Positions 32,813 to 55,830 of a stretch of DNA of 58,209 nt are shown here, one piece after another. Where the stretch lies: the NCBI RefSeq assembly GCF_003697815.1, contig NZ_RDQG01000056.1, forward strand, positions 1 through 58,209. Reading direction: 5' to 3'. A program made the position numbers and the translations under genes. The stretch comes from Halalkalicoccus subterraneus. GTDB taxonomy: Archaea; Halobacteriota; Halobacteria; Halobacteriales; Halalkalicoccaceae. The first letter of the stretch is position 1. The number at the start of each line of letters is the position of its first letter. The notes beneath the pieces were generated by a model that worked only from the letters and a program-made list of their open reading frames with translations, was not told the DNA's origin and searched no databases.

Positions 32813-32817
32813 CTATC

Positions 32818-32984
32818 TAATCACACCGTGGTGTGATATGGTTCCGAAAATAGAATCGACGAAACCGTTTTTCCTCCCTCTACTACTCCTATAACGGGAG
32901 GAGGCTGCTCGGAGTTGGAACTAGGACGGGACGGCTTGCCCGGGGTAGTTGTCGTCAGCTATGCGCCTTATTGTTGTCCCGTTG
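32818..32984 (-). repeat. Conserved 3' flank of the coiled-coil gene (repeat unit, copy E)
   Basis: This 167-bp flank carries the TCACACC-GT-GGTGTGA hairpin (32821-32836) and blocks such as CTGCTCGGAGTT and GGGGTAGTTG. The same sequence, in the same order, follows decayed copies C (22465-22650) and D (24580-24749), and partly A. It is more conserved than the coding remnants, so it may be a functional end of the repeated unit. Confidence 0.65.
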
Positions 32985-33698: not shown

Positions 33699-33873
33699 CG
33701 GAAACGTGGTGTGTCGCGGGTGAGACGATCGGGCCCGTCTCATGGCTAACAAGCGATTCGACGGCGTAGCTGCGTGGCGTCACTACACTCAAGGTATGGG
33801 GTGTTACAGGCGGGGCTCTCGATGGGCGTGCAGCGCTGGCGCTGTGCGAAAGCCCGCCCATTGCTGGTACGGG

Positions 33874-34641: not shown

Positions 34642-34841
34642 CGGTCGGCCACCTCACAGTCCGCGGCGTGGAAGGCCTCGCGGTGGAGGTCCTGCTCGCG
34701 AATGGATTCTCGGTCGCAAGACTCGCAGCGCCAGTAGGTGGTGGCGTTCGCGACCGTTGGGGGTTCGCGGTGGGGACCGGTGATTCGGTTCGCTTGTTCG
34801 GAGGCGATACTGTTTTCTGGGGTAGAGTTGCTAGTGCTCAT
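34635..34841 (-). CDS. Small zinc-finger protein
   Basis: The start at 34841 (MSTSNSTPENS) gives 68 residues. The C-terminal part YWRCESCDRESIREQDLHREAFHAADC has a CxxC plus downstream His/His/Cys, a C2H2/C2HC-like finger. It is first in the operon leading to the coiled-coil gene and faces the wHTH gene at 34990 across a palindrome. Confidence 0.55.
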   Translation of the reverse strand: MSTSNSTPENSIASEQANRITGPHREPPTVANATTYWRCESCDRESIREQDLHREAFHAADCEVADRC

Positions 34842-34939
34842 TGCTGGTTCTCCAGCACGAGAGGTCGGTGGCATCAACACCGGCCTCAGAGACCTTCTGA
34901 GGCAGCTCGTGCTCAATCAAATATACTGGCTGTAGCCAC

Positions 34940-35351: not shown

Positions 35352-37475
35352 TCAGTATACTCGGAATGTGTCTAGATATTCTTCAATCACTCTCTGCTCC
35401 TCGAGTGTAATATCGAACATATTATACACTATCTCATTTATCTGCTCTTCCAAATCATTAAGATCGGTTTCAGAGACGATCGTTTCATCTAATTGCCGAG
35501 CCTTTAGCAGTGTATCAACCCCATTGTCACTACGCGGAATCGGAATTGTCGTCGTTTCTCCGCTTTTAACGTTTCGCCCATTAACAGCTTCGCATACGTA
35601 TGTCGCTCGGCGTTTCCTCATATCTGGATCGGCAGTGTGCATTGCCGCGTCAGCAATCACGTCTGAACGGCCAGCCTGCACCGTGAATCCACTATTGGCT
35701 TCATTGACCTCAGCGTTCACAGGATACCGGCGTGTCTGCCATTCGTATGTAATGTACTCTAACTCACCATCATACTCACCGAGGTATGCCTCAGGAAATC
35801 GCTCGATTTTACTGCTTGTATCTAACGCTGCCGTAATTGTTGAGATAAGATTCTGGATCTGGGTACGACAGTCATCATCACCCCAGGAAATTGGAAGCGG
35901 AGTCAGATAGTTTGTTGTGGATTTGTAATATCCATCTACCTTCAACGTTGTATAATGTTTGAGATAGAAATCTAACGCATTCGAGTTTAGCAGCGCGGCG
36001 AATATCTCGGTTCGATCCCTAAATTCGTCTTTGAGCTGGACACCGTATGCAGACTTGAAGTACCACGTCCCGACGTTGTCGACCATAAACGTCGCTTCTG
36101 CTGCAATTTCAGGGCAGATAAGTTTTGGATCTTCGAACCTCGTCAAATTCTGTGGGCGGCCAAACCCGTACCAATCATCCCGGTCTTTAAATCGGCCACC
36201 ATCACGACCCTCTAAGATGTCTCGATGTTCCGTCAGGTATGTCCATGTTAACGGGAGATCATTCTCTAACTGTTCTTGGCTGATGATATTTGATGTGAGG
36301 CGGCCATCAGAATTGCGTTCAATAGTATATGGTACAATAGCGTGCTCCCCGGACCAGTCCCCACGCCATCGATTGATGTCGCGGCCTTGCAACCACGGGC
36401 GCAGTGTCGTCGTCTCAATTTCGTACTCCTGTTCCTCTCCTTTCGGAACAACTGTTACCGTTCCATTAGTGTCATCAGCACCAATCCGATCAGCATCAAC
36501 TGGTGTGACGAGGAATACATTGTTCGCGCTAGTTTGTGTCCCAACAAATACCGAATCAGTCACATCACCTACAGTTCCATCACTCGCCACGTTCATCTTG
36601 TGAATAATATCCAGCTCTTCTGGCGGCATTAGCGACCAATACCCGTCGTCTAAGTCCCCCTGAGGATAGTCAAATACATCAATCAAATCATCTTTATATC
36701 CAGGATCATCTCGATGATTCCGGACTGCTTCAACAACTTCTGTGTCCAGATCACGGTTCGTCGGAGCTTTCGTATCAGCTTTTACTCGAACACACCGAAT
36801 ACTGTTGGTTTCACGTTCACTCGAATCCGATTCCTCTTCGAGGATAACGATAGCTGGATAGTTTTTCGCATCCGCAAACACACCAGAATCACGGAAATCA
36901 TATACTTCTTCGATGCGGGCCTCATTGAGTAAGACACGCCGCAAACCCTCACCATAGTCTGTATTCATGAATTGGTTCGGGGTGATGAATCCCAGCTTCC
37001 CACTCCCCTCTTTCAGCCAGTCAAGCCCTCGCTCGTAGAATGGACAGTAGAGATCGTAGTTTCCCGTCGTCGATTCATAGAGCTGATCCAACATTGCCTT
37101 CTGCCCATCAGGGAGGTTCTGGATACGGACATAGGGCGGGTTCCCCACAACGTAGTCATACTCCATGTAATTCTTAACGACAAGCGCGAGGATCGTATCC
37201 TCAAACATCTTGAAAAGGCGCCCGTCGCCGTGCTCTTCCTCGAGATAACGGACCGTACTGAGGATATCATTGACGTACGGAACGAAGAACTCCTCGACAC
37301 CATCGTACTCGCGTGTCGTGTAGCGGTTGATCCTCTGCGATAGCCCACCACCGTACTCCCACATGCCCTCGCTCATGTGGAATTTGACCACGTCCAGGAC
37401 ACCCTGTAGTGCCGCAAAATATTCCCCGAAATTCCGCACGTCGGAATTCAACCGTACCGTCTCGAAGAGTGGCAT
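35352..37475 (-). pseudogene. Type IIG (Eco57I-like) restriction-modification enzyme, C-terminal half
   Basis: A frame of 707 codons. VVGNPPYVRIQNL (NPPY at about 112-115) is motif IV of N6-adenine methyltransferases, followed by LGFITPNQFMNTDYGEGLRRVLL and VYDFRDSGVFADAKNYPAIVIL. From about 300 on is a TaqI/Eco57I-type target recognition domain (TLRPWLQGRDINRW, then SAYGVQLKDEFRD). SAM-binding motif I (DPACGSG) and everything before it are absent: the frame opens right after a stop with IPVYRTD-like MPLFETV. The missing N-terminal half appears at 51360-52671, on the same strand and beyond the DISARM block. It may still be translated but would not bind SAM. Confidence 0.75.
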
Positions 37476-37628
37476 TCGTACTCGTTGAACACCGTCTTAG
37501 CCTGATAATGGACGCAATCGACTTGTCCTGAATAAAGGATCTTCTTCGACACACGTGGTTAGAGATGCGGCGGGATTGTTCTCATCTCACCGGGTAGGAA
37601 TTGGAGTGCATACTTGACCGGGTGAGGG

Positions 37629-37633
37629 TTTAA
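37629..37633 (+). promoter_or_regulatory. TATA-like box of the HNH-like gene
   Basis: TTTAA in GGGTTTAACCGG lies 36 bp before the ATG at 37670, a spacing that fits a short-leader or leaderless haloarchaeal transcript. Confidence 0.35.
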
Positions 37634-37669
37634 CCGGCATTGTGGGCTACTCTAAACCAGAGTTAGTAC

Positions 37670-38326
37670 ATGGAACCAGAAGATAAGTTCGGGAATGAGA
37701 TCTACTCCAATATTTACGAGGAACTTTGCGAATATGGTGCTCGATTAAAACAGGTAGGGTATCAGGAGTCCCGTAACAAACCAAACCTCTTCTACTACGA
37801 GAAGACGCCTGGTATCATGTTCTTCATGGATATGCGTGGAACACAACAGGTGAAAATTTGGGAGGACACTCGACCCCTATTTTACTGGAATATCGATCTC
37901 ACTATGCCGGATTGGGGCAGGCGATGTCTTCTCAAGCAAGAACGGGAGCGATTAATGAGTCATCAAGTTCCGCTACGCATCAGTTTCTACGCTGGCATGG
38001 GAAGTGGCTTCGCAGAAGCCGATAATTCGAAGGTGCCGGATCCATTTGGAGGACCCGACGGGTACTGCCGTACCTGCGGTGAGGACTTGAGTTCGAATGA
38101 GATGCTTTGTTCGGAAGACTGTGAGAGAGACCAGCACCCGAACCGATTCTGTGAATCCTGTAACGACCGGCTGGAGTGGGATCAACTCATTCGTCACCAC
38201 GTCAGTTACTACCCCGAAGAGATAGTGAATGTGTGCCGGTCCTGTCACCGGAAAATCCATCTTGAGGACTCCTTCCATCCCGAGCTTACGCCACCACAGG
38301 AAGACATAGAACGCTTCTATGAGTGA
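37670..38326 (+). CDS. HNH-like zinc protein beside DISARM
   Basis: A protein of 218 residues. The N-terminal 120 residues are unrecognised. The C-terminal part has C133xxC136, then C147 and C151, C161xxC164 (CESC), H176-H177 (LIRHHVSYYPE) and C189-R-S-C192-H193...H197 (CRSCHRKIH). This HH...CxxCHxxIH layout is that of HNH endonucleases with a structural zinc. It lies 267 bp before the 5-methylcytosine methyltransferase on the same strand, so a nuclease partner to DISARM modification is plausible but inferred. It is not one of the standard DISARM genes. Confidence 0.6.
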   Translation: MEPEDKFGNEIYSNIYEELCEYGARLKQVGYQESRNKPNLFYYEKTPGIMFFMDMRGTQQVKIWEDTRPLFYWNIDLTMPDWGRRCLLKQERERLMSHQVPLRISFYAGMGSGFAEADNSKVPDPFGGPDGYCRTCGEDLSSNEMLCSEDCERDQHPNRFCESCNDRLEWDQLIRHHVSYYPEEIVNVCRSCHRKIHLEDSFHPELTPPQEDIERFYE

Positions 38327-38593
38327 CTCGTTAACGGGTGCTACAGTGATTGAGCGAAATCACGGACGGTATTGATTGCATCTTCTCGGGAATCCACTGC
38401 ACGGACCATTCACCACCTTACCAATCGGCTACCCCGGGTCAAGGAGGACCGAGAAACGTCTGGTTCGCTTCGACAGTCCATTTGCCATCCGGTTTCCCAT
38501 GTAGTTCGATCTTGAGAGTTAGTCATCAAATGAGTGAGTTTGGATGTGGCTTATGTTTATAAGACGTCGAAACATAGAGAAGATCAAGAACCT
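38327..38593. other. Gap between the HNH-like gene and drmMII with a coding scrap
   Basis: On the minus strand a 22-residue frame, MVRAVDSREDAINTVRDFAQSL with stop, is protein-like and may be the tail of a lost gene. Upstream of the methyltransferase start, TTATGTTTATAAG near 38550 holds a TATA-like box. Confidence 0.3.
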
Positions 38594-39715
38594 ATGGATC
38601 TGACGGCTGTTGACTTATTCAGTGGCGGCGGTGGCGCGTCACTTGGTATCCACCGTGTTGACGGGATAGAGTTGCGAGGAGCGGCGGAAATCAATGATGA
38701 GGTCTGTGATCATTACAATAAGAATCTCCCTGTGGAGGCCGCTGATATCGACCTTACCGATGAAGACGCCTTAAATCAGATCTGCGCCAAGTACGACTTG
38801 AAACCAGCAGACATTGATCTTGTCATCGGTTGCCCACCCTGCCAGAAGTACAGCAGTCTCCAAGACACAACACCGCCACTTGAAGACGGTCCGAAAAACA
38901 AACTGCTCAATGTCTACATCGACCTAATTCTCAAAATAGCCCCTAAAGTTGTCGTGTTCGAGAACGTCCCCGGGTTAATGTCTGAGAAGAACGAGCAATA
39001 CCTAGAGGATCTCAAGTATCACCTTCGGAAATCCAATTATGGATTCGATCTGAAACGTCTCTGTACAGCGGATTACGGCGTACCACAAGACCGCGATCGA
39101 GTAATCGGTATTGGGATTCAGGGCGTGTCGAGTGAGGAAGTCTCACTCCCGGAACCTACACACGCCCCACCTGAGAAGGCTGATGCTGAAGGAAAGAAAC
39201 CGTATCGGACAGTGGCCGATGCGATCGATGACCTCCCACCCCTAGAAGCAGGGGAAACACGCAGTGATCTGCCATTCAATGGTCACCGAGCGCGGAATCA
39301 CCGAAAGAAGACAATCGAATTCATGAAGCAGATCCCTCAAAACGGAGGAAGCCGAACGGATCTGCCCGACGAAGACCAGCTAGAGTGTCATAAGAACTTG
39401 GAGAACAAAGCCAGTGCTGGGAACGTGTACGGTCGCATGGCCTGGGAAGAGCCAGGCCCAACACTTACTGGCCGGTGTACTTCCCCCAGTTCTGGTCGAT
39501 TCGTCCACCCTGAACAACACCGTGGGATTAGTCCCCGAGAAGCAGCACGGATTATGACGTTCCCGGACGACTACGATCTCCCAGAATCGAACGGGACTGC
39601 AGAACGTCTAATTGGGAACGCTGTACCGCCGGACTTCATTGCGACTGTCCTGACTACCTTCCTCACAGAGCATAAGGATCTGATCAAAGAACCTCAGGCG
39701 CAGACAGCAGACTAA
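38594..39715 (+). CDS. drmMII: DISARM DNA (cytosine-5) methyltransferase DrmMII
   Basis: The start at 38594 (MDLTAVDLF) places motif I at the N-terminus as usual; an upstream frame start adds 20 unrelated residues. It has 373 residues. Motifs: I DLFSGGGGAS (7-16), IV GCPPCQ with catalytic Cys83, VI FENVP, VIII PQDRDRV, a target-recognition region (about 190-300), IX RCTSPSSGRF and X GNAVPPDF. It marks host DNA with 5mC so DISARM spares it. It is transcribed against the drmE-A-B-C operon, with only 1 bp between the two stop codons. Confidence 0.88.
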   Translation: MDLTAVDLFSGGGGASLGIHRVDGIELRGAAEINDEVCDHYNKNLPVEAADIDLTDEDALNQICAKYDLKPADIDLVIGCPPCQKYSSLQDTTPPLEDGPKNKLLNVYIDLILKIAPKVVVFENVPGLMSEKNEQYLEDLKYHLRKSNYGFDLKRLCTADYGVPQDRDRVIGIGIQGVSSEEVSLPEPTHAPPEKADAEGKKPYRTVADAIDDLPPLEAGETRSDLPFNGHRARNHRKKTIEFMKQIPQNGGSRTDLPDEDQLECHKNLENKASAGNVYGRMAWEEPGPTLTGRCTSPSSGRFVHPEQHRGISPREAARIMTFPDDYDLPESNGTAERLIGNAVPPDFIATVLTTFLTEHKDLIKEPQAQTAD

Positions 39716-39716
39716 G

Positions 39717-40058
39717 TTAGGCTGGTTCCTGTCGCGTTCGTAGCTCTTCCAGAATTGCCCATTCAAGCCCCGCAGCTAGTGCTGCTCCCGGATAAGCGTA
39801 CCAGAAGTCCACGCTCCCCATCTCACTGATGTGCTGCATCACGTGATCATTCGCGTCCCCGTCGTAGAATTCATCGGGATATGTCTCAACTAATTGCTGC
39901 AGCTCGTTCAGGACATCTTTTGTGTTGTGTTTGAGCAGGTACGACTCGTGCGTCAGAGACCGAACAACAGATTCGACATTTTCGTCTTGCCCTCCCGCTC
40001 GTTTCTGAGCAAGGTCAGCAAAAGCGGTGATTTTCTTTTCCATCGACTCTGCGTTCAT
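39717..40058 (-). CDS. Small helical protein in the DISARM operon, function unknown
   Basis: A protein of 113 residues, mainly helical: KKITAFADLAQKRAGG, VVRSLTHESYLLKHNTKDVLNELQQLV, then WYAYPGAALAAGLEWAILEEL. There is no membrane helix or catalytic motif. It is the last gene of the drmE-A-B-C transcript, 83 bp after drmC, and its stop is 1 bp from the drmMII stop. I know of no standard DISARM component of this type, so it could be an accessory or regulatory part of the local system. Confidence 0.55.
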   Translation of the reverse strand: MNAESMEKKITAFADLAQKRAGGQDENVESVVRSLTHESYLLKHNTKDVLNELQQLVETYPDEFYDGDANDHVMQHISEMGSVDFWYAYPGAALAAGLEWAILEELRTRQEPA

Positions 40059-40141
40059 AACGGGTTTCCATTCGTCGTCGTACAGACTGTCGACATGACT
40101 CGCGGGGGAGTATAACGCTACGGGATATTATCGAACACCGT

Positions 40142-41059
40142 CTAGAGAGGTACGCTGTCCGATTGTGAGAAAATCGCATCGAACACCTCGGTGACCTCGG
40201 AAACAATTTCCCCTTCAAGAATGACTCCAAACTCGAAATTCCCACGGAGGTTCAAGTCGGTCAGATTTGCGCTACCGATGTAGCATTTCTCACCATCCAC
40301 CGAGATTATCTTTGCGTGAACTGCACCGGTCTGATAACCGGAATTGGATGTTTCATAGAAGTCTCGGATAGCAACATTCTCGACTTCCCCAGAATCAAGC
40401 GCCTTCACGATTGCTGTCACCGCATCTAATGCACGACTATCAGCATCTACGCCGGTAACCTCTCGTGTTAGTATTCGTGTTTCAATTCCTCGACGAGGTA
40501 ATGCAGCAAGATCTTCGATAATCCACTGTTCAGGATCAAAGTATGGATTCGCTATTCGAACCGTGTCGGATGCGTCCATCAGCATTCGACGAAGCGCAAT
40601 GTCGAGCCTACCCACATCAGCTGAGATATCGTCTTTGACCCCCCGAGGTAGCGTGGCTACTAACTTAACATCGGTTTCAGAGGGGGTAGACGGTTGTAAC
40701 TGTTGTATTGCCAGAACAGCGACGATTTGCTGATCCAACACCCGGATAGCGTCATCAGGATTCACACTGAAGGTGTACGTACTATACCCGCCCGATGCCG
40801 TTCGGGTTTCAGTAGCTGCATGAGTGTTGGCAAGCGAAACCATCACTGCGTTAAATTCCGCCATCTTCAATGGTCGAACTGCCTCTGAGATGTCCAGTAA
40901 CTGAGTGTCTAGGTCTGGCTTTGTGATTTGGACATCCTCTTGGTCAAACGCTGCAAATGCAGCCTGCAGATGCTGTAGGCGAGTAGTATCCTGAACCACT
41001 GCTGCAGCGGTGTAATCCTGGCACAACGGTGATCCATCAGAGAGGTCCGGGGTGGTCAT
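40142..41059 (-). CDS. drmC: DISARM protein DrmC (phospholipase D fold)
   Basis: A protein of 305 residues with one PLD motif, H248-A-K250 followed by S263-A-N265 (VHAKIISVDGEKCYIGSANLT). IANPYFDPEQWIIEDL (about 169-184) is the usual mid-domain segment of DrmC. One HKD motif per chain implies a dimer for nuclease activity. In published bacterial DISARM the PLD gene is not essential for defence. It starts 7 bp after drmB. Confidence 0.85.
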   Translation of the reverse strand: MTTPDLSDGSPLCQDYTAAAVVQDTTRLQHLQAAFAAFDQEDVQITKPDLDTQLLDISEAVRPLKMAEFNAVMVSLANTHAATETRTASGGYSTYTFSVNPDDAIRVLDQQIVAVLAIQQLQPSTPSETDVKLVATLPRGVKDDISADVGRLDIALRRMLMDASDTVRIANPYFDPEQWIIEDLAALPRRGIETRILTREVTGVDADSRALDAVTAIVKALDSGEVENVAIRDFYETSNSGYQTGAVHAKIISVDGEKCYIGSANLTDLNLRGNFEFGVILEGEIVSEVTEVFDAIFSQSDSVPL

Positions 41060-41066
41060 TCAAGCA

Positions 41067-42980
41067 CTACAGTTGGGAGATGTCGTCCGGGATACCGTTG
41101 CTAATGCCTTCATCCCAGAACCCGACGATGTCACTTTTACTTCGAACTATGCGCCGATCGAGATGATGATTGATCGCTTCGCAAGAGGTTTCTTCGATGT
41201 GGAGGCATGCGTCACAGGCTGCACCAGCGGGGTTCTCACGGCAGGTTGCGTCAATCAGGCACTGGTCAGCCAAGTCTCGGGCATCGGACACCCACGGGTG
41301 GAGGCGTGTTTTGAACAGTGTAAACATACTCCCAAGTGCGAAGTTCTCAGTGCTTGCTGCGTAGACCGCGATTGCAGGGATGACTGGGAAGATACGCTCG
41401 CTTAGGCTTGAAGTTGCGAGTCCACACTGCTCACCTGCACGGGCAAGTAGACAGTGACTGAGAGAGTGGAGTAATCGGTACACCCATCGAGTGATATCAT
41501 GTTCGATCGGTGTGAATGGATTGTCTAACTCTGTGGTTGCGATGTTGTTTAGGAACCACTCTTTCAGCGCTGCTTCGTCTGACGTGTCTGGACGTTGTTC
41601 AGCCGTGATTACGTTATTCGCCTCTAACCAATTGATGATGGCTGTACGGTCAATTTCGAAGATTATTGCTTCGCTCGGTGTGCGATCTGCGAAGATCGGT
41701 GTCGTTGCCCGTTCACGTGGATGGGGGAAACTCCGCAAATCAACTTTGTTTGACTGGGAGTCTGCTCGGGTGTACCCGTACAAGATGTTCAGTAAGGGGA
41801 ACTGGTCAACGATCCACGCCTGTCGAATGTGAGACGCTGTGAGCTGGGGACGATATCGCCCGCTCTGCGGGTGTCGCTCTCGGAAATCTGAGTCCTGTAG
41901 GAAGTGACTCAGTGACTTCGGGATGGGGTGGCGAGTATCTTTGAGATCGTCCATATCGCCTTCGTAGCCGTTCGTCGATCGTTGAAACGTGAACAACTGG
42001 TGGGCGATATTTGAGTAGGCCAGTGCTCGGGTTCCTTCTTCAACATCACCTTCTGTGTCTGGAGGTGTGATGTGTTCGGTTTCTGCGACCAGGGTTTCTC
42101 TTCCGTGGACATCCTGGTCCATGTCGTCGAACATTTCCTGTGCATCTTCTTCTCCCAGTCGATTGACCCACTTCTGGTACTTGTCTACCATCCCTTCTGT
42201 GGTTGCCAGATTTTCGATGGTATTGCTCTCCAGATCTGCGAGTCCCAAGTGCGCAGCCATCAGAACATGTGCCCACGATTCATCTTTAGGGATGTCTTCT
42301 GCTTGATCTCCGATGTACGGAATATCAACTTCAACCGCTTTCTCTGAGTAGAAGATACGGCTACTTGCTGTCGGAAGCGGGCCTTGCATGCCATTGCAGA
42401 CGCCACAGGAACTGCTTAGCACATCAACAGTGTCACCGCACTTGTTACATTCGTATCGCCACATTGCAGGTTCACTTGCCCGCTTGTTAAGGCGGATATC
42501 ATCGAACCCGTGTTGACTGCACCCGCGGTTGGGACTTGCGTCCTCTAGTCGCCCACAAGTACAGACATTGACGAATGGTAGTTGAGTGATTGATTCTCCG
42601 CACGCTCGACACTGTCCATTTGATGGGAGGTATCCCGGTTCAGTGGCGGTGTGGACTTTTCGGCAACTTTTATTTTCACAGTAGAACACCAGTGGGAACA
42701 GCCTCCCTTCGATCTTCAGGGGACGGTATAGGTCAATATCGTCTGCTGAGATGTTCTCCCATTCATCTGCTGTGGTTCGATTTCTGTATCGACCGATGCG
42801 ACTCTGGATGATTTTTGCAACGCGTTCACGGTCAACATCGTCAATCTCTTCGACGCGTCCCCAAGGGTTGGTTTGCATCGTGAGCCCCAATTGACCAAAG
42901 TCAAAGACGTTGCGGGCCCCGTAACTGTTGAGTATTTGTGCCACCCCTCGTTCCATCTCGAATTCTGAGTTTCTTGACAT
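41067..42980 (-). CDS. drmB: DISARM protein DrmB (DUF1998, zinc-binding)
   Basis: A protein of 637 residues. Zinc-type cysteines lie at C101/C106, C124xxC127, C140/C142, C178xxC181 and C192xxC195. The C-terminal DUF1998 signature is CRENPAGAACDACLHIEETSCEAINHHLDRRIV (split here as CRENPAG, CDACLHIEETSCE and NHHLDRRIV). DrmB pairs with the DrmA helicase as the DNA-loading core of DISARM. It is separated from drmA by 2 bp and from drmC by 7 bp, one transcript. Confidence 0.88.
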   Translation of the reverse strand: MSRNSEFEMERGVAQILNSYGARNVFDFGQLGLTMQTNPWGRVEEIDDVDRERVAKIIQSRIGRYRNRTTADEWENISADDIDLYRPLKIEGRLFPLVFYCENKSCRKVHTATEPGYLPSNGQCRACGESITQLPFVNVCTCGRLEDASPNRGCSQHGFDDIRLNKRASEPAMWRYECNKCGDTVDVLSSSCGVCNGMQGPLPTASSRIFYSEKAVEVDIPYIGDQAEDIPKDESWAHVLMAAHLGLADLESNTIENLATTEGMVDKYQKWVNRLGEEDAQEMFDDMDQDVHGRETLVAETEHITPPDTEGDVEEGTRALAYSNIAHQLFTFQRSTNGYEGDMDDLKDTRHPIPKSLSHFLQDSDFRERHPQSGRYRPQLTASHIRQAWIVDQFPLLNILYGYTRADSQSNKVDLRSFPHPRERATTPIFADRTPSEAIIFEIDRTAIINWLEANNVITAEQRPDTSDEAALKEWFLNNIATTELDNPFTPIEHDITRWVYRLLHSLSHCLLARAGEQCGLATSSLSERIFPVIPAIAVYAASTENFALGSMFTLFKTRLHPWVSDARDLADQCLIDATCRENPAGAACDACLHIEETSCEAINHHLDRRIVRSKSDIVGFWDEGISNGIPDDISQL

Positions 42981-42982
42981 GG

Positions 42983-45900
42983 TTATTTCCGGTACTCCTT
43001 CACTAACCGCGAGGTGTCGCTGTCGAGGGCGATCGTGAGTTGTTCGTCAATGTCTCGGAGATTCCGCATCGGTGTTCGAACGGAATCGTCTCGTTCCAAG
43101 ACACCTAACGGGATGAAGTTATTCTCGTCCGTGTTCCGGTCGTTTGCGCGGCTGTCTGGAATCCGATTTTCTTTGTCGAGGCAGGCGTCCCAGAGGCGAT
43201 CGAATTCTTCTTTGATTTGTTTCCGGTATAACTCAACACCACTTCGTGGGTCGTTGTCATTTACTGATACGACGTCTGCCTCGTCAATGCCGTATGCATC
43301 AGTAACGAATTCGAAGAGCCCGTCATAGGAGAGTTCTCCACTACGTGCAGCTTCCTCGAATCCGTCGAACATGTACACCCGCTTGGAGGTCCCGGAATCA
43401 TCCTCTAACTGGAAGTCGTAGTACTGGAGCAGAGCGGCACAGAAGACACCGGGGATTGTACACTGAATAGCGAATTCTGCCCAGCGTTCCAGTGGCGTTG
43501 CTTCGACCAGCAGGTCCTGATACGCTTGGTACTGCTGGAATCGAGTGTAGTAGGAGCGGTCACGTACACGGACAGGGTTGTGAAGCATGAACACCGTCCC
43601 TGGCCACTCTCGACCGACACGCGAGTACGATTGAATGTATTCTGCTGTCTGACGTGGTAACCCGAAGAATCCGATGAAGTTGAGCCGTCCAATGTCAACA
43701 CCGTGGCTGATCATGGAAGTAGCAATCAGCATATGGACGGGGTCAATTCCGTCTTCATCGTGATTCAGGAGTCTCCGCATGATTTCTCGGACATCACCGA
43801 GGTTGGTTTCTCCTGTCAGGAGCTCGCCTCGAAGTTCCGTATACGGATCGGTGTCGTCATTGAGATGCTGGTTAATCATCGTGCGGAGAACGCGCATCAT
43901 CAGGTCTGTGTTGTCTTTCGAGTAGTGGTAGGAGACTTGGACCTCGTAATCATCCAAGACCGCCTGCAGAGCCTCCTCGCGTTCCTGTGGGTCTCCTGGG
44001 ATGGCCGCGTCATCGATGTTGTAGGTATCGTTTACTTCTTGAATATCCTGAAACAGTTTTTCTGTGTCCGCCCGGTACTCTTGGATAATTCTGGCGTACT
44101 CTTCATGCACTTTCTCGATGGCGTAGGTCCGACTGACACTCCGTGGAATCGCGCCCACCATTTGTCGCTGGTTTCGAATCGGGTCTGCGTACGCGTAGAA
44201 TGATTGACGGAGTCGCGGTCCTTTTTCTGGGAAGATGTTAGATGGCTTCTGGTAAAGAGCACGAACCTGCCGTTCAGCGCCTTCAATCGTTGCCGTCGCA
44301 GCAACGACCTTCATGTTCCAGTCTCCACCAGTGACCCGATCGTTGTACGCTTGAAGGAAGGTCTCGTAGTGACTGTCGAATGCTCCGAATTCCTCCCGTA
44401 GAAGGTGTAGTTCGTCTTGGATCAGTAATGACGGGGGATCAACTGGGTCAACTTCTTCCCAGTCTTCTTCGGAGCAATGCCCATCACCCAAAATCGCACT
44501 TTCTTGGACCACGCACTCACTTTCACCGGCGTACCCATGTTTTTCACATCGTATCTTGGCTTGCCCAAAGAGTGTCCGCATTCTTCGTTGCATCCCGATG
44601 ATGCTGATCTTGTCAATCGTTGAGACGACAAATGTTGGTGAATAGCGGTAGACTTCACGGTCGGTGATATAAATCGGGAGTTCAGTCTCACTGCACTCGT
44701 CGTTGGTACACTGGTGGATGATTCGCCCTCGCTCTCTGTCACCTGTTATTTCAACGGTTTCTTTCTGACAGAAGGGGCACTCATCAACATAGAGCAAGTT
44801 TTCTTGCACTTCCTCGTCCTGCTGGGCTTCACGGAGTTTGTTTCGCCCTTCCTCTCGGAGAGCATTTGGTGTGTTTTGTTTTCCTACCAAGTACCCAATG
44901 GAGAACTCTTCACCTCCGATGTCGTATTCTCGTCGTAGGAGCTCCGCTTGTGCCAAGACGTTCGCTGCACGTTGGAGTTGCTGTAGGGAGAGGAACCGGA
45001 GTGGGAATTTTGTAAAGGCAGTCATTCCGTAGCCTTTCCCGCGAAGGCGATCGTGGAACGCGGTGAAGGTGACTACACCGAGGTACGCTTCGGTCTTTCC
45101 ACCACCGGTTGGGAAGTAAATGATGTCCGCTGCGTCTAAGCTGTCGGTCATCCCTTCTGACTCGAAGTCAATATTGACATCTTCGTCTACTCCGGACGCT
45201 TGTTTGAGCATATCCGGGATAGACATGACAATGAAGACGATTTGGAACATCCGCCACCGGTCAAACCCAAGATTGGCAAATGCTTTGTTGCATAGCTTGA
45301 AGGACTTGTACGCCCGTTCATCTTTTCGGAGGCACTCGATGCCAGTCTTGAAACGTTCGTGTTCGTACTCGAACGCGGCTACTGCATCTTCGAAGTCATC
45401 TTCGGCTTCAACGGATTTCCCCTCCGTCATTTCATCTTTGATCGCACGATAGTCCTCAGCAGCCTCTTCCATCGTCGAGGAAATACGCTCAAGCCCCTCG
45501 AAGACTTCCTCACGGCCGTTCGCTCCTGCAAGGACCTCCATCGGAGCAACAATGTCCGCGGGATTTCGACTTAGGTACTTGGCTTGCTCGTATGTGGGGA
45601 CGGTTTCTGTTCGGACTCCTATCGCATCGCTTGGGCCCGGATTTTTAGTATCACCGAATACGGGCTCTACTGCGCAATTCTCACCGACACCGTGAATTGT
45701 TCCATCGTACTGGTACTCGTCTTCGATTTCTTTTGATTTGAAAGCACCCAGCTCACATCCATCTAATTCGGCTTTCACGCCGACGTCGAAGAGAGTTGAA
45801 CGCCAGTCCTCATACTCAGGGTCAGTCGAAGTTTCAAAGTCCTCACCGTGAGTGTTCACAAGCCGAGCCGTAACTGTGATGTACTCCTCTTCTGAATCAA

Positions 45901-46747
45901 TTGGACTATCGTATCGGGCATTGAGTTCCAGACGAGCCTGCCAAAGCGGATCGATGGTAGTAGAAGTGTAAACCTCGTTCAGGTAATTCTGGAAGGCCTT
46001 TTGACTTTGGAGAGCTTGTACTGGTACTTGGTTAGCGGTGCCCTCCCCAACACCCTCTTTTCTCTCCCGGAAAGAGTTCTGTACACTCTTTGCCCGTTCA
46101 GTTGCGTCGGCGAGATCCAGAACTATCTTCTGGGGACTGTTCCCTTCGAGAAGGGTATGGATGTCCGACCCAGTGAGTTTGTAGGAGTCGAATTTGAACG
46201 GAATTTGTTCGTATACCCTGGTGAGTTGTTCATACCCATCAGCCTCGATTTGTTCTAATTCGACCTCTTCATCATCCTGATCAGAGTCGGGTTCGGTTTC
46301 TTCCAGCAGAACATCTGCATCCTCGTTGTCGTTAGCTTTGTTTCGTTGCTCGTCAAGTGTCGGGAACCGTCTCTGATAACCAGACGCTTTTGGTGTTACC
46401 TCGATTGTCGCGTCATCTTCGATATCAGCAGGAACGCGGAATTTTACCCCGATAGTAAACGGCGAAAGATCGTCAGAAAAATTCTGGAGAGTGTCATCTT
46501 CTGCCTGTGCTTCTCTGTATTCATACTGACTTACGAGCGCCCCAGCGAAATATTGGTTTGATGGTTGCGCTCCGTAGAGCGTTTTGGCGACCTCTCCTCG
46601 ACCGGTTAGTCTGTCGATGAGTTGGTCGGTTATTGCACGGTTCACCAACTGGTGGCGGGGGTACGCAGAGTCGTCACCAGAGTCGTATGCTTCGTCGGGT
46701 GGGCGAGTGAACCGCGGGGCATCTTTTTGGGGAAAAGAACGTTCCAT
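42983..46747 (-). CDS. drmA: DISARM helicase DrmA
   Basis: A protein of 1254 residues, an SF2-type helicase. Walker A is YFPTGGGKTEAYLG (about 542-556), the DExH box is DELHLLREEFG (about 778), motif III VVAATATIEGAERQ, motif V SMISHGVDIGRLNF, and motif VI SYSRVGREWPG (about 1035-1045). A zinc knuckle CPFC...CTNDEC lies between Walker A and the DExH box. The N-terminal 450 residues are the DISARM-specific part. With DrmB it forms the complex reported to bind unmethylated or 5'-ended DNA. It follows drmE after 89 bp. Confidence 0.9.
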   Translation of the reverse strand: MERSFPQKDAPRFTRPPDEAYDSGDDSAYPRHQLVNRAITDQLIDRLTGRGEVAKTLYGAQPSNQYFAGALVSQYEYREAQAEDDTLQNFSDDLSPFTIGVKFRVPADIEDDATIEVTPKASGYQRRFPTLDEQRNKANDNEDADVLLEETEPDSDQDDEEVELEQIEADGYEQLTRVYEQIPFKFDSYKLTGSDIHTLLEGNSPQKIVLDLADATERAKSVQNSFRERKEGVGEGTANQVPVQALQSQKAFQNYLNEVYTSTTIDPLWQARLELNARYDSPIDSEEEYITVTARLVNTHGEDFETSTDPEYEDWRSTLFDVGVKAELDGCELGAFKSKEIEDEYQYDGTIHGVGENCAVEPVFGDTKNPGPSDAIGVRTETVPTYEQAKYLSRNPADIVAPMEVLAGANGREEVFEGLERISSTMEEAAEDYRAIKDEMTEGKSVEAEDDFEDAVAAFEYEHERFKTGIECLRKDERAYKSFKLCNKAFANLGFDRWRMFQIVFIVMSIPDMLKQASGVDEDVNIDFESEGMTDSLDAADIIYFPTGGGKTEAYLGVVTFTAFHDRLRGKGYGMTAFTKFPLRFLSLQQLQRAANVLAQAELLRREYDIGGEEFSIGYLVGKQNTPNALREEGRNKLREAQQDEEVQENLLYVDECPFCQKETVEITGDRERGRIIHQCTNDECSETELPIYITDREVYRYSPTFVVSTIDKISIIGMQRRMRTLFGQAKIRCEKHGYAGESECVVQESAILGDGHCSEEDWEEVDPVDPPSLLIQDELHLLREEFGAFDSHYETFLQAYNDRVTGGDWNMKVVAATATIEGAERQVRALYQKPSNIFPEKGPRLRQSFYAYADPIRNQRQMVGAIPRSVSRTYAIEKVHEEYARIIQEYRADTEKLFQDIQEVNDTYNIDDAAIPGDPQEREEALQAVLDDYEVQVSYHYSKDNTDLMMRVLRTMINQHLNDDTDPYTELRGELLTGETNLGDVREIMRRLLNHDEDGIDPVHMLIATSMISHGVDIGRLNFIGFFGLPRQTAEYIQSYSRVGREWPGTVFMLHNPVRVRDRSYYTRFQQYQAYQDLLVEATPLERWAEFAIQCTIPGVFCAALLQYYDFQLEDDSGTSKRVYMFDGFEEAARSGELSYDGLFEFVTDAYGIDEADVVSVNDNDPRSGVELYRKQIKEEFDRLWDACLDKENRIPDSRANDRNTDENNFIPLGVLERDDSVRTPMRNLRDIDEQLTIALDSDTSRLVKEYRK

Positions 46748-46836
46748 ATTGGGATGTATCCTCCTTTGCTTCAGTCAGGTATAAAACCAATCCTCCTGGC
46801 GTTTCGTAGAGCAAGGGGTCAGAATCAAATGCGATC

Positions 46837-49347
46837 CTATACGGCACTTTGCCACCGGCCCACTGAATTCAAGGGAACTGTCCCAATATCCTGGATATCA
46901 GTTACGGTGTGAACCTTGACAAATGGACGTCCAGAGTCATCTGTAGGATCAAGGTCAGACAACCGGATATCTAATTCCTCATCGATAACCGGGTCACTCC
47001 CATCATCCTGCATTAGCGCCTCTTGACTCCTCTGTTTCAGCAAATCAATAAATCCACTCTTAATACGCCGAATTTTGTGGTTTGCTGTCCATACATTTTC
47101 GAATTCTTCTAAGACTTCCTCCATCTCATAAGCGCGTGCTAACGCATGCAGACTGTCTTTTGACCTTGGAAGATGGATATCTCCAGAGTACCAAGCTCGG
47201 TACGTTGACCGTCTCTTGTTCACACCCTCATCCTCTAACCGCTTAATGAACTCGTCTAGGCTGTCTCCACGCCGTTCAATTTCGGTGTGGAGTTGGTTTT
47301 TCCACAGGCGGGCGTACCCAATGAGGTCAATGTGCCCACTATCTAGTAGTAACTTCTCCACAGAGTCCCGAATCGCATCTTGATCCTCAATAGCGACTAC
47401 TTGCTCTCCGGGACGTATCGAGCTTACTGGCTTCTTCACCGTTGTTCCCGCATCTGGATCGACCACCTCCAACGAATCCCCCGACTGAAGCGTAACCGCC
47501 TTCCCATCTTGGACTCGGACTTCTACGCATCCTTCGACTTGACGATTCGTTCCTGCTCGATTTCGTTGACCGTTACTTCCAGAACTTCCTGTGTCCGGAT
47601 CATACACAGCACTGTCCGAGTCAAACGCTGGAATAGTTCCGTTGATGAGGTCCTCGATTGAATCATCAGATTCACGCTCTACCAATTCGTAATCATCGAA
47701 CGGTGTGTCGAAACTGCTTTCGACATTTCCTGGATCAGGGATATCGATAGTAACTCCATCATACGGCCCGGAATCAGTCGGTGAAAGCGTGTCAGGGATA
47801 TCAAAGGTGTCATTGTCAGGAAACATCCTAGGAGCAGAAATCGTTTCCAGTAGTTGTGACTGAAGGCCTTCGCTGGTTGGATTTGGAGTCGATTCTCGCA
47901 TCTCTTGGTTGAGTAACCGGACTTGTGAGTGGAGAAGCCCCAACTCGTGCTCGTAAGCCAAGACACCGACATGTGATGCTTGGGGTGTACGGAGTAACCA
48001 ACGGTGTTGGTATTTTGGTGGACCGTAGAGAAGCAAGTGGTCTGCGGGCTCGGCATTGGGAAGTGACCGGGGCGTATGAAGATGAATATGACGGCGCGCT
48101 TCCGAATGAAATCCTGCTCGTTTGATCCGTAAGTCAGCTTGGAGGGCTTGGCGGGCAGGTTCGTCCGGTAATACTATAATGAGATTCTCGTCTTCATCGA
48201 CCACTTTCTGCATAGCGGTGAGGACCGCCCCTCGCTTCCATTTCTGGGAGTTCGTCTCTGTCAGTGCATCACGGAGTTCACAGAGTCCATAATGCACGTG
48301 TTCAACCGGGGTACGCCCTGCTGCAGCATCACCGCTCAACCCATCCATTATGTGCTTGACTTGGCTAATACGCCCGGACAGAGTCGTGGCTTTCCCATGC
48401 TCAGAACGGTAATTATCACTGTATTCCAAACTCGATAGCAGACGAGTGAAGCCGTTAATTGCCCGTTTTGCGACGCCTACAGCAGCGTAGAGTTGCTTCT
48501 CGTCGATGTCTTCCGCTGCATCTTCTAACTCTTCGAATGCGTCCCAGAGGTCAGCAAAGGCGTCTACAACAGGCCCATCAGTACATGCATGTATTTGGTG
48601 AGTCTGTCCGCTCGCTTTCTGTTGAATCAGCCGTCGCTCCCGTCTGGTGCAGTCTGGGATTGTCTTCTCTGATTCGTTTACGGAACCGGTAGACTTGGCG
48701 ATTTCCGACTGAAGAGCGTGTGGCGTCCATGCCCAGACCGCATCGAGATCATTTTTGATGCGTTGGTAGACAGGCCCGAGGGGATCCCTGATGAAGTATA
48801 CGGAGCTCGGGATCTCATTCCGGGAACGCCACTCTTGGAAGCGTTCCCAGCGATCGTCTTCGAACTTTACTGCATCATCGTAAAATACTGTACGGATATC
48901 TCCACTGATATCGTCATTTGGAATCCGAGTGCTGTAACGAGTGAATATGACACCAGGTGGGGCATCAGCACTACGGACATGTTGTGTCCGGTAACTGAGT
49001 TCCTTGTCTGCTTTTACCGTTGCAAGCGCCCATTTTGCAGTACTGTACTGCATTCCGTTCTCTAAGTTCTCATACCGATCACGAATCGAAGTGTTTGGTG
49101 AAATGATGAAGACCGGTGTGAGCGAGGACATGTCTTGGAAGAGGGCTGCCAGTGCATAGTAATCCAAAAGCCCGCTGTGGAGTGTAGGTGTAATAACACC
49201 AATGTCTTTCCCTAATTCCACGCTGGATTGAATGAGATCCGTATGGAAGGTTTCGGTTGCTGGAAGCTCGTAATTGCCGCCATCTAAGCGAAGATGGGGT
49301 AATTCGATAAGATTGAGATTCTGTAGAGGTGTATCTGACCGGCTCAT
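46837..49347 (-). CDS. drmE: Class 2 DISARM protein DrmE
   Basis: A protein of 836 residues, first of the DISARM operon. The N-terminal 230 residues have a degenerate helicase-like fold (IGVITPTLHSGLLDYYALAALF, TPVFIISPNTS, TVFYDDAVKF). The C-terminal part has LWKNQLHTEIERRGDSLDEF and VNKRRSTYRAWYSGDIHLP, a helical DNA-binding-like segment typical of DrmE. Presence of drmE and drmMII, and absence of the SNF2-like drmD, marks the system as class 2. Its exact activity is not known. It is divergent from the orc1-like gene. Confidence 0.82.
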   Translation of the reverse strand: MSRSDTPLQNLNLIELPHLRLDGGNYELPATETFHTDLIQSSVELGKDIGVITPTLHSGLLDYYALAALFQDMSSLTPVFIISPNTSIRDRYENLENGMQYSTAKWALATVKADKELSYRTQHVRSADAPPGVIFTRYSTRIPNDDISGDIRTVFYDDAVKFEDDRWERFQEWRSRNEIPSSVYFIRDPLGPVYQRIKNDLDAVWAWTPHALQSEIAKSTGSVNESEKTIPDCTRRERRLIQQKASGQTHQIHACTDGPVVDAFADLWDAFEELEDAAEDIDEKQLYAAVGVAKRAINGFTRLLSSLEYSDNYRSEHGKATTLSGRISQVKHIMDGLSGDAAAGRTPVEHVHYGLCELRDALTETNSQKWKRGAVLTAMQKVVDEDENLIIVLPDEPARQALQADLRIKRAGFHSEARRHIHLHTPRSLPNAEPADHLLLYGPPKYQHRWLLRTPQASHVGVLAYEHELGLLHSQVRLLNQEMRESTPNPTSEGLQSQLLETISAPRMFPDNDTFDIPDTLSPTDSGPYDGVTIDIPDPGNVESSFDTPFDDYELVERESDDSIEDLINGTIPAFDSDSAVYDPDTGSSGSNGQRNRAGTNRQVEGCVEVRVQDGKAVTLQSGDSLEVVDPDAGTTVKKPVSSIRPGEQVVAIEDQDAIRDSVEKLLLDSGHIDLIGYARLWKNQLHTEIERRGDSLDEFIKRLEDEGVNKRRSTYRAWYSGDIHLPRSKDSLHALARAYEMEEVLEEFENVWTANHKIRRIKSGFIDLLKQRSQEALMQDDGSDPVIDEELDIRLSDLDPTDDSGRPFVKVHTVTDIQDIGTVPLNSVGRWQSAV

Positions 49348-49553
49348 GGCATCCTTGACCGGGATTGGAGGCTACCTTTTCGGGGAGTGAATTCGTAGTG
49401 GAGGCCTATCATAACCGACTGTCGTGGCACTTTGAATGGTAAGTATGTATGGACCATGTAAAAGGAATTGGGTGGTGCACGCATACCATTCGGAAGATTC
49501 GGAAATGACACCCTTCCAATTATTACCCTGGCCAGTTCTGTCGACACAAACTC
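49348..49553. promoter_or_regulatory. Divergent region between drmE and the orc1-like gene
   Basis: It is 206 bp long and carries the promoters of both genes. It contains GATTCGGAAATGACACCC (about 49496-49513), which recurs as GATTCGGAAACGACACAC after the orc1-like gene (about 50598-50615). This is a candidate repeated protein-binding or origin element. Confidence 0.45.
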
Positions 49554-50557
49554 ATGATCACAGACGCACGGGTTCTTCAACCCGAATTCATCCCACAGGA
49601 GGTGAAACACCGGGACGCAGAGGTGAATTACCTCTCAAGCGTCCTGCAACCAATCCTTGACGGCCGAACCGCTGACCCATCTTTCCTCCACGGCCCATCC
49701 GGAGCAGGGAAAACCTGCATCGCCCAATACCTCGTGGAACAATTACGCGAAAATGTCGTCGAACTCAACCACCAGTACGTCAACTGCTGGGAAGACCACA
49801 GCCGCTTCAAAACCCTCTACCGGCTGCTTGACGGCATTAACCAAACAGTCGATATCCACCGGCAATCAACCCCGAAAGACGTTCTTCTCGAACGCTCCGT
49901 GACGCAGACGGTACCCCATATGTCGTCATCTTGGATGAAATAGACCAACTCGAAGACAAATCACTCCTATACGACCTGTACCGCATCCCGCATCTCACAA
50001 TGATTCTCATCGCCAACAACGAAGAGGGCCTTTTCGATCCGATCGATGACCGGCTGAACAATCGGCTCACCGACTGTGAGCGGATCCACTTCCAATCATA
50101 CCACGAAGAAGAGTTAGTTGCTATTCTCCACGATCGCGTCCGGTGGGGGCTCGCAGAAGATATCATCGACACACCACTCCTGGAGTTAGTCGCGGCAAAC
50201 GCCGGGGGAGATGCCCGCGTCGCTATTGGGATCCTTCGACGAGCTGCTCGAACAGCGAAGGACGACCGTATGGACGGTATCACTGCGGACATTATTCGGA
50301 AGGTGACTCCGGAAGCCAAAACGGAAATTCGGCAGAAAACCGTGAACCGTCTCACCACCCACCAGAAAATCCTGTTCAACATAATTACAGAGAACCGGGA
50401 AATCGAGCCACAGCGACTCTATGACCTGTACTGTGACCGTTCCGAAGACCCGAAGACCAAACGCATGGTTCGGAACTACCTTTCCAAGCTCGAACACTAC
50501 AATCTCATCACTGCGGAAGGTAACACGAAATCCCGGATTTACCGAGTACAACCGTGA
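49554..50557 (+). pseudogene. Orc1/Cdc6-type AAA+ ATPase, one-base frameshift
   Basis: Two frames together give a normal Orc1/Cdc6: Walker [16 protein letters not shown] at about residues 43-57, Walker [13 protein letters not shown], sensor-1 LIANNEEG, AANAGGDARVAIGILRRAA (sensor 2) and a C-terminal winged helix (HQKILFNIITENREIEP, then LSKLEHYNLIT). At 49890-49900 GAA CGC TC CGT GAC GCA GAC lacks one base compared with E-R-L-R-D-A-D. A C before TC restores a single frame, so the loss is recent or a sequencing error. Family members bind origin repeats and load the MCM helicase. Divergence from drmE suggests it arrived with the DISARM block. Confidence 0.78.
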
Positions 50558-50654
50558 GACCGTAGTTCGCCATACATTCAGGCATACTGGTTGGTGATGA
50601 TTCGGAAACGACACACAGTTGCCTATTGTCGTAGGTGATGCCCCACGAAATGTG

Positions 50655-50858
50655 ATGAACGACCCACCCCCAAGCAACGCTATTGACCAGGTATCGAATC
50701 GTGTGTTCAATGAATGGTATGCGGAACAGCAGTTCGAGAGAAACATCTTGGAGGGGAAGGCGTATTTCAACGGTGCGTCTCCACCGAAAGACCCGGAATA
50801 CCATACGCCAAGTAAACTACTGCAGTGTCCCCGGAAGGGTCACCACAGCCGTTTCTGA
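50655..50858 (+). CDS. Short ORF, unrecognised (possibly a fusion scrap)
   Basis: A 67-residue frame starting MNDPPPSNAIDQVSNRVFNEW, with RNILEGKAYFNGASPPKDPEYHTP, is charged and protein-like. Its end runs into the transposase remnant in another frame, so it may be truncated. Family unknown. Confidence 0.3.
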   Translation: MNDPPPSNAIDQVSNRVFNEWYAEQQFERNILEGKAYFNGASPPKDPEYHTPSKLLQCPRKGHHSRF

Positions 50859-51172
50859 CGAATCTTGATGTGAGCGATGAGATTGCGCTTGATCGTCGGT
50901 GGGCAACCGAACAGATCGAGCAGTACACCGATCGTGGCGCTATCGAGAACTCTTACTCGTCGATCAAAGAGGCAGCTGCGTGGACGACGTCGCCGGAATT
51001 CGAGGTGCGTTGGTTCCACTTCGCGTTCGGTTGTGTCGTGTACAATATGTGGCTGTTAGTGGATTTCCTGGCACAGGAGCGTATTGGTGTGATCGAATCG
51101 CGGGAGAAACCGCGGATCACGCTGTCACGGTTCCTGGACTGGTTAGATGAGGAGCTGGTTACACTCCTGTGA
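50850..51172 (+). mobile_element. IS transposase remnant, C-terminal third (DDE type)
   Basis: The frame encodes PFLTNLDVSDEIALDRRWAT, YTDRGAIENSYSSIKEAAAW and EVRWFHFAFGCVVYNMWLLV. The Glu in RGAIENSYSSIK is the last residue of a DDE triad of the IS4/ISH3-like haloarchaeal type, with the helical YREK-like region after it. The first two thirds are missing, so it cannot transpose. It lies between the orc1-like gene and the broken restriction enzyme, exactly where a rearrangement is inferred. Confidence 0.7.
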
Positions 51173-51360
51173 AATCCGTTCCGGGTTAGAGCTTCTTGAG
51201 CGACAGCCTTCGGCAGTAACTCGTTTTTCGGTTGAATTTTCGTTCCTGTGCACGAGTTTTAGCTAACCGACAGTTCAATCGGTTGCTTTTCGGCGTAGAT
51301 CGGCGTCCTAAAGCCTGAGAACTGGGTTTCTCGTGAACGTTTTGACCGGCATTCGCAACT
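51173..51360. other. Junction DNA next to the broken restriction enzyme
   Basis: This stretch supplies the out-of-frame tail of the N-terminal enzyme fragment and contains GCACGAGTTTTAGCTAACCGACAG. It has no gene of its own. It may be the end of the IS whose transposase remnant lies just before it. Confidence 0.4.
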
Positions 51361-52671
51361 CAACATAATACGCTCCGAAGAGACGCCATACTCGTAATCC
51401 ACACCGTCCATGATGTAGTCGATGACTGGTTGGGGTGTGTAGAATTCGCCAAGCGCCTTGCGTGTCTCTGGGTCGAAATACTGCTGGTAGAGATCACCGA
51501 GCGGGTCGCCTTCGATACGGGAGAAATCGAACTTCAACACAGCAAAAGCAACGCGAGCAACAGCGCGACTGAACCGCTCACGTGTTGCAGGGCTCACCTT
51601 TGTCACGTCGCTGCCCTGCTGTGCAACGTCGCGAAATCGACTGAACTGATCGCGATGCTGACTGGCGGTCTGCTCGCCATAACCGTCGGTCCACCAGATG
51701 AAGATGTCGTCCTCAAACAGGCTCTCGACGAGCTGGCGACGCATCTCCTCGATCATGCCGTTCGCCGCAATCGGGTACGCGTCGAGGTCGATCGTACCAC
51801 TAAACCCGCCACCGAGCTCGTTGAAATAGCGCTCAAGCCCCCGATTGGTCGGGAAGAAATCGTGATCCTCTGTCGCCTTTGCAAGCAATAAGCGCGCTAA
51901 CAGTGCGTGCCCACTCTCAAGACAGAACATGAAATCACGGAGCGATTGCTTTCCATCGATGAACGGCTCCCACGAGTCGGGCGTCTCATTAGGGACGTTC
52001 GCATAGCTCGCCTCCCAAAAGTCGTACGCTCCCGCAACGAACTTCGCGTTCTGCTCGTCGCGGAGTTCCTCTAGCAGGTCCGTCATTGCAACAATGAGAT
52101 CAGCAAATGGACTGTCTTCCTCTAAGCGAAAGGTATCGAAGAAGTGCTCACGACCGAGCTCACTATCGAGGCTCACTTCATTGAGTGAGCCAAGATACTC
52201 GGTAACGCTATCGGGGTCAGTAATATCCCACTCCGGTTTGCGAAGCGCTGATTGAATATTGGTCGCGTCGCTTGTCGTTACGTCTGAGAGGGTGACCGTG
52301 ACTAGCGGAGTTCGATCATCCTGCCGATACAAGCGAAATTCCTCTCCATTCGTGAGGACCCCGTAGTCGGCTTGGAGCTCTGTCACGTAGTGAAACAGCT
52401 GATCCTCGTGAGGGGAGAGCGCACGACCTGCAGTTTTGAATTCGTAGACTGCTGTTACGGACTCGTTCTCGTCCAAGGTAACATAATCAGGTCGGCGCTG
52501 ATCAGGTAGCGACCATTCGCTTCGGAGATCGTATCCGGCTCCTTCGTAGCCGAGTGTTGAGTAGAAGTGCTCGTTGAGAAACGCGTTTTCAACGTCTTTC
52601 TCGCTCATCTCCTCGTTAATACGTGACCCAATACCAGAGAGAACCTCAATAAAGTCCGCGTCAGCGCTCAT
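51259..52671 (-). pseudogene. Type IIG (Eco57I-like) restriction-modification enzyme, N-terminal half
   Basis: The start at 52671 (MSADADFIEV) is an ATG; a GTG 12 bp up is also open. About 470 residues. The N-terminal nuclease domain has a PD-(D/E)XK motif: PDYVTL (Asp62), then AVYEFKTAG (Glu77 and Lys79). QLFHYVTELQADYGVLTNGEEFRLY follows as in type IIG and type I HsdR-like domains. The methyltransferase starts LGEFYTPQPVIDYIMDGVDYEYG and stops being homologous at SERIML, just where motif I (DPACGSG) should begin. The last 33 residues are foreign. The rest of such an enzyme is found at 35352-37475, in the right order and strand. Confidence 0.78.
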
Positions 52672-52885
52672 ATAGAGTGCCACTCAGAAAGGGATCAAAA
52701 AGCCAGTGGAAGGATGAGATCAGTCAATTGTGGTTTGTATGGTATCTCACTGTGTAGTTCAGCTGGCTTTTTTGTATTCTCTAGTATGATGAGTAGGTCG
52801 ATAAAAGGTAATAATAGAGGTATCCTCATTTGGATTTCATTTTTACAACAAAAGATTATTCAGTATGTGTGATAGAGTATCTCAC

Positions 52886-55018: not shown

Positions 55019-55192
55019 CGGATTAAGATCGGTATTTAATTGCCTGCAGATCAATTGTCTTGTCAGCTCGTCCTGGCTTCGATTCAATAGCAAATGAGCC
55101 CACATCAACAGAGGAAATCATATCAATCAGATTCGAGCGCAGGACCAAAATACTGAGTGACTGCAATAGCCCATTCGAAGAGCTCCTGAAAG

Positions 55193-55729: not shown

Positions 55730-55786
55730 GGAGCGTATCCGTTGGCTAGAACCAACAGCGGGTAATCGCTCTTCAAAGAGAGTCTG

Positions 55787-55830
55787 CCTTGTGCAACACC
55801 TCGCATCCAAGGACGTTTTGTTGCACAAGG
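55787..55830. repeat. CCTTGTGCAAC inverted-repeat element, copy 4
   Basis: CCTTGTGCAAC (55787-55797) and GTTGCACAAGG (55820-55830) are perfect ends around 22 bases that differ from the other copies. It sits 58 bp after the HhH gene, far from any repeat of the coiled-coil family, so the element also exists alone. Confidence 0.65.

Follow-up and report, generated by a model that had tools for sequence, protein, structure and literature searches.

Two pieces of what appears to be a single restriction-modification gene lie nearly 14 kb apart on the same strand of a contig from Halalkalicoccus subterraneus, with a DISARM system between them. Are they truly parts of one gene, and if so, how was it split? 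The window examined is the whole of contig C56 (58,209 bp), which belongs to a 3.61-Mb draft genome in 101 contigs. We consider it very likely that a single type IIG gene was interrupted here by a 13.9-kb foreign block, carrying DISARM and the remains of a plasmid-type orc1 gene, that replaced 442 bp of the original coding sequence.

Two halves of a type IIG gene

Both half-genes are on the minus strand and both reading frames are open. The N-terminal half (51365-52683, with start codons GTG at 52683 and ATG at 52671) encodes a PD-(D/E)XK nuclease domain (HSDR_N, E = 2e-7), a helical region, and the start of an N6-methyltransferase that stops at the residues SERI, before motif I. Its frame runs on to 51259, inside insertion sequence (IS) DNA. 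The C-terminal half (35352-37490) starts at an internal methionine and spans VQRVRMPLFE, then NPPY, and then the target-recognition domain, with matches to Eco57I (E = 3e-30) and TaqI_C (E = 8e-12).

A search of the genome with the C-terminal half revealed an intact paralog on contig C16 (P0003, L005:8284-12183), in which HSDR_N, N6_Mtase, Eco57I, and TaqI_C all reside in one frame of 1299 amino acids. Window positions 51365-52711 are 91.5% identical in DNA to L005:10865-12211, and positions 36844-37490 are 91.2% identical to L005:9776-10422, in the same sense in both cases. At the protein level the halves match P0003 residues 3-440 and 586-1299 with E values of 0 and 1.5e-291, which excludes chance. 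The C16 copy is the nearest relative of both halves (over the conserved parts, its protein is 97% and 95% identical to theirs). Furthermore, full-length homologs of 1239-1326 residues are present in 14 other sampled haloarchaeal genomes, and the relative is full length in 28 of the 32 named records that hold one, some members being common to these two sets. Each half aligns to its own end of every full-length homolog. As judged by these alignments, the two halves once formed the opposite ends of a single type IIG gene.

A preliminary description of this DNA had placed both halves correctly, with bounds now refined to those given above, and the strand and order that it expected of an insertion into one gene are those of the intact C16 paralog. 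Its prediction that one homolog would match the two halves and leave a gap in the middle is likewise borne out by this paralog and by the full-length haloarchaeal homologs. Neither of the contrary outcomes named beforehand was seen: the halves share their nearest relative rather than belonging to different subfamilies, and they do not overlap.

The original gene, which joins a PD-(D/E)XK nuclease, an N6-adenine methyltransferase, and a target-recognition domain in one chain, is of the type IIG (Eco57I-like) kind. Residues D66, E81, and K83 are invariant in the aligned nuclease domains of these enzymes, and the PD-(D/E)XK residues are preserved in the N-terminal half in the window. Identity with the BREX protein PglX was considered for the split gene and rejected, as P0003 scores 149.6 bits where the cut-off for BREX-2 PglX is 400. 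The two restriction-gene loci are homologous in DNA as far as a point 28 bp upstream of the gene. In the upstream region of the intact copy, L005:12220-14793 encodes an 857-amino-acid protein with PHP and SMC/AAA-type ATPase domains.

The absent piece corresponds to L005:10423-10864, or about residues 440-587 of P0003. These 442 bp encode approximately 147 residues, twice the gap of 60-80 residues estimated earlier, and within this genome the stretch was found in the C16 copy alone. It includes motif I (DPSCGSGTF, with the consensus DP(S/A)CGSGTF across the alignment) and the VGLDIHPFAV region, both of which are found in 15 of 15 aligned full-length sequences. Thus, motif I, expected of a type IIG enzyme, is today absent from both halves of the window copy, and neither half holds the whole SAM-binding fold. 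An N6 methyltransferase that lacks the motif I stretch is not expected to bind SAM. The window enzyme is therefore presumably dead as a methyltransferase, and hence as a type IIG restriction enzyme, which agrees with the earlier suggestion that neither half would bind SAM alone.

The inserted block and its probable source

The block that replaces the lost 442 bp is 13,874 bp long (37491-51364), as delimited by the positions, 37490/37491 and 51364/51365, at which base-by-base homology to the intact gene breaks. Its first 179 bp (37491-37669) have no relatives in 392 genomes, and matches start with the HNH-like gene at the left edge (37670-38326, plus strand). This gene encodes 218 amino acids with a weak zinc-ribbon match only and has relatives at 67-71% DNA identity in three haloarchaea. 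Next is a drmMII-type 5-methylcytosine methyltransferase gene (38534-39715, plus strand; DNA_methylase E = 1e-54, DrmMII E = 1e-49), whose product is 78% identical to the DISARM-linked methyltransferase of Halobacterium salinarum. The protein matches DrmMII, although other methyltransferase models score higher, and its gene occupies the same position as in H. salinarum. A predicted product of 113 amino acids is encoded between this gene and drmC.

Four genes on the minus strand then follow, each complete by its PADLOC match: the PLD-like drmC (40142-41059; E = 8e-58, profile positions 7-291 of 295), drmB (41067-42980; E = 1e-150, 3-645 of 649), the helicase gene drmA (42983-46747; E = 0, 10-1229 of 1235), and drmE (46837-49347; E = 2e-126, 8-791 of 821, with Pfam DrmE_C). 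The near full-profile matches of the drmA/drmB/drmC core, plus drmE and drmMII, are those of class 2 DISARM. By gene content, this is a complete class 2 system with intact reading frames and a predicted antiviral role.

The remainder of the block is less well preserved. An orc1/cdc6-like gene (49554-50557, plus strand) carries a one-base frameshift at about codon 114, such that two parts of one orc1 lie in different frames. The shift is a single gap in the DNA alignment when compared with genomes G018 and G049 and with H. salinarum, in each of which orc1 is one gene. It is followed by the first ~60 codons of a truncated gene for a Cas4-like PD-(D/E)XK nuclease (50656-50836, plus strand), which match the start of a 378-amino-acid nuclease of G018 that itself matches the cas4 and PDDEXK_1 profiles. 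This truncated start is fused to a transposase remnant. The preliminary description had recognized the HNH-like gene, DISARM, the orc1-like gene, and the transposase remnant, but it missed the frameshift in the orc1-like gene and overlooked the truncated Cas4-like gene.

Orc1-like and Cas4-like nuclease genes are also paired at L029, L030, and L009 (haloarchaeal genomes G018, G049, and G089), where the stretches examined contained no DISARM gene. The sequence TTCGGAAAYGACAC is present at 49493 and 50596 in the window, just before the orc1-like gene and the Cas4-like nuclease gene, respectively. G018 and G049 have near-copies in the corresponding positions, and near-copies also precede ISH3-like transposase genes. 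Perhaps TTCGGAAAYGACAC is a shared promoter or operator. We had considered it as a left end of the IS, but dropped this idea because it also precedes orc1 and nuclease genes in other genomes and so is not diagnostic of the IS.

Window positions 40164-50550 are collinear, in one alignment, with plasmid DNA of H. salinarum. The plasmids concerned (NZ_CP128378.2 and relatives) share the order and orientations of drmMII, drmC, drmB, drmA, drmE, and orc1, and the drm proteins are 67-87% identical between them and the window. The orc1 of the window is found in ten Halobacterium records and its DISARM stretch in six. This collinearity suggests that the DISARM-orc1 part is probably an older unit that came from plasmid DNA. 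There are differences as well. The orc1 of the H. salinarum plasmids is annotated as one intact gene whereas that of the window is frameshifted, and the 38 kb examined around the plasmid-borne DISARM of H. salinarum contain no half of a restriction gene. Also, no DISARM gene is near the restriction-gene homologs at 32 named loci, a sample in which the two therefore do not recur together.

The two joints and the order of events

The two ends of the block differ in character. At the right end (50834-51364, plus strand) is the 3′ part of an ISH3-like transposase gene together with the right end of the IS, which consists of GTGAACGTTTTGACCGGCATTCGCAAC followed by a loose NCNAC and terminates at the joint. 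The remnant has 75% protein identity to transposase residues 448-584, and positions 51203-51361 have 94% DNA identity to a Natrinema plasmid. A relative of the transposase at L027 matches the NCBIfam ISH3 model with 96 bits (E = 2e-27), which is under the curated threshold of 225. Of 392 genomes from the order, 21 have this conserved right-end sequence. Its last base in the window is 51364, and the very next base, 51365, is the first that is homologous to the restriction gene. Since the consensus is weak over the five outermost bases, the IS could also be taken to stop up to five bases earlier; whichever length is chosen, the conserved motif marks the right joint as an IS terminus. The right side would therefore have been made by transposition or by an IS-mediated rearrangement. 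A transposase remnant at one edge had been described before, and to this we add that a conserved IS end reaches the joint exactly.

At an almost constant distance beyond the IS right end, many copies have a palindrome resembling GTATAGCGNTATA with TTTAT after it (L026, L095, L100, L101, L103-L108, L110, and L112). The window copy lacks this palindrome. The pattern suggests that the ISH3-like element prefers targets beside promoters.

No IS end is present at the left joint (37490/37491), and no second IS right end exists in the window or elsewhere in the genome. A comparison of both joints for direct repeats or a target duplication yielded nothing beyond a 3-bp AAC, whose right copy belongs to the IS end motif. 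With a single IS right end in the window and no duplication at the joints, the block is not a composite transposon. As a rule, simple transposition duplicates a few bases of its target without losing any, and so the loss of 442 bp needs a second event. Likewise, a left joint with neither an IS end nor a target duplication calls for at least one further deletion or recombination. Thus, no single clean insertion accounts for the whole arrangement.

We propose that the 13.9-kb foreign block entered the type IIG gene and took the place of the 442 bp that encode its SAM-binding heart. Transposition or an IS-mediated rearrangement would have made the right joint, and a later deletion or illegitimate recombination would have made the left one. 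The cell would have gained DISARM and lost one restriction specificity while keeping the C16 paralog with its different target-recognition domain. Because so similar a paralog is retained on another contig, loss of the window copy would have cost that one specificity. We infer the order of these events, the plasmid source, the loss of activity, and a recent date. It had been suggested that DISARM destroyed the gene by landing in it. The gene is indeed split by a DISARM-bearing block, but landing is just one possible order because it was the IS that made the right joint, maybe before or maybe after DISARM was present.

The target-recognition part of the window copy (35352-36843) is 75% identical to its counterpart in genome G097 and about 50% identical to that of C16. 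The two copies in this genome therefore probably recognize different target sequences. For comparison, the N-terminal half is 64% identical to G097; a higher identity to G097 in the target-recognition part is a sign that domains have been swapped among type IIG genes.

The date of the break can be approached through codon comparisons with outgroups. The N-terminal half of the window copy has accumulated 1-4 non-synonymous versus 18-27 synonymous changes, and the first 220 codons of the C-terminal half have 0-2 versus 9-17. The branches leading to the window copy and the C16 copy show similarly few amino-acid changes, and this comparison gave no sign of decay or relaxed selection in the halves. 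This would mean that the gene broke recently compared with the time at which the two copies diverged, unless the halves are still under some selection. To us, the break looks recent.

These data bear on a different history, in which the ISH3-like element killed the gene first and DISARM-orc1 was joined later, via the IS, into a gene already dead. The position of the right joint exactly at the IS end fits such a course, as does the truncation of both the IS and its neighbor genes, which indicates several rearrangements. However, neither a second IS copy nor any different IS end lies at the left joint, and the halves lack the decay that a long dead period would leave. We view this history as a real possibility with somewhat less than an even chance. 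It is also conceivable, with odds a little lower still, that the block arrived at or near the gene by recombination and that an IS-mediated adjacent deletion, which began at the right end of the IS and extended into the restriction gene, then removed the 442 bp. After an adjacent deletion the IS still has its end, now bordering the new joint, as is seen at 51364, and a deletion of this kind would account for the lost target DNA. Nevertheless, it does not explain the mechanism of the left joint, and nothing in the sequence singles out such an order.

It is very improbable that the halves are still functional, either as separate nuclease and methyltransferase/specificity polypeptides or by co-assembly with the C16 enzyme. 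The open frames, the intact nuclease residues, and the rarity of amino-acid change would all suit continued function, but motif I and its ~147 residues are only in the C16 copy, the C-terminal half starts internally, and a whole SAM-binding fold is in neither half. An assembly artefact that misjoined unrelated stretches at the restriction-gene copies is scarcely credible even for a draft of 101 contigs with two similar gene copies, since the copies differ by 9% (in our estimation too much for easy confusion by an assembler), the single-copy IS end and a contig with no N make repeat-driven misassembly unlikely, two false joints in one consistent order would be needed, and complete plasmids have the same DISARM-orc1 order.

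No related genome with an empty site, as had been hoped for, was found: within the genus there is no unsplit ortholog at the same locus, where the flanking DNA is largely multicopy, and the unsplit version is instead the paralog at another locus of the same genome. The left flank of the window matches genome G005 of the same genus from C3:247889, and a Halalkalicoccus jeotgali plasmid (NC_014299) matches there too. Positions 32812-34846 and 55186-55938 represent two sequence families that have many copies in the genome and across the genus.

Defense turnover and known cases of split restriction genes

The locus offers a base-exact snapshot of defense turnover, which includes the part of the enzyme that was lost, the system that replaced it, and the end of a mobile element at one junction. 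With the intact sister gene, the genome also supplies a natural control on whether the split enzyme is dead. There is also a practical consequence, in that annotation pipelines may count one broken restriction gene as two. It is tempting to speculate that IS-joined DISARM-orc1 units travel between haloarchaeal plasmids and other replicons, and that they replace restriction genes where they land, trading one specificity in a single event while a paralog protects the cell. We regard so general a scheme as unlikely at present.

A limited literature search found no published account of DISARM inside a restriction gene. The locus adds a new and clear example to a known type of event, in which mobile DNA breaks a restriction gene. 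In Helicobacter pylori NY40, the R.PabI gene is split by nested integrative conjugative elements (PMC4615327). As in the window, mobile DNA cuts a restriction gene, and a rearrangement has occurred at one end of the insert in a related strain (PMC4615327). Target duplications accompany the integrative conjugative element in H. pylori, whereas the insert in the window, a DISARM block, has an IS at one joint and came with a loss of target DNA.

A second parallel comes from plasmid pHV4 of Haloferax volcanii, on which a type IIG gene exists as two fragments, HVO_A0006 and HVO_A0237 (PMC5867850). As with the halves described here, one is a nuclease piece and the other a methyltransferase/target-recognition piece, although no DISARM is mentioned for that pair (PMC5867850). 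Deletion of both fragments left the 6mA methylation motif unchanged (PMC5867850). When plasmids were searched with the enzyme family of the window, none of the records with E below 1e-60 was from Haloferax. Therefore, the two Haloferax fragments probably belong to a different type IIG subfamily from that of the window gene.
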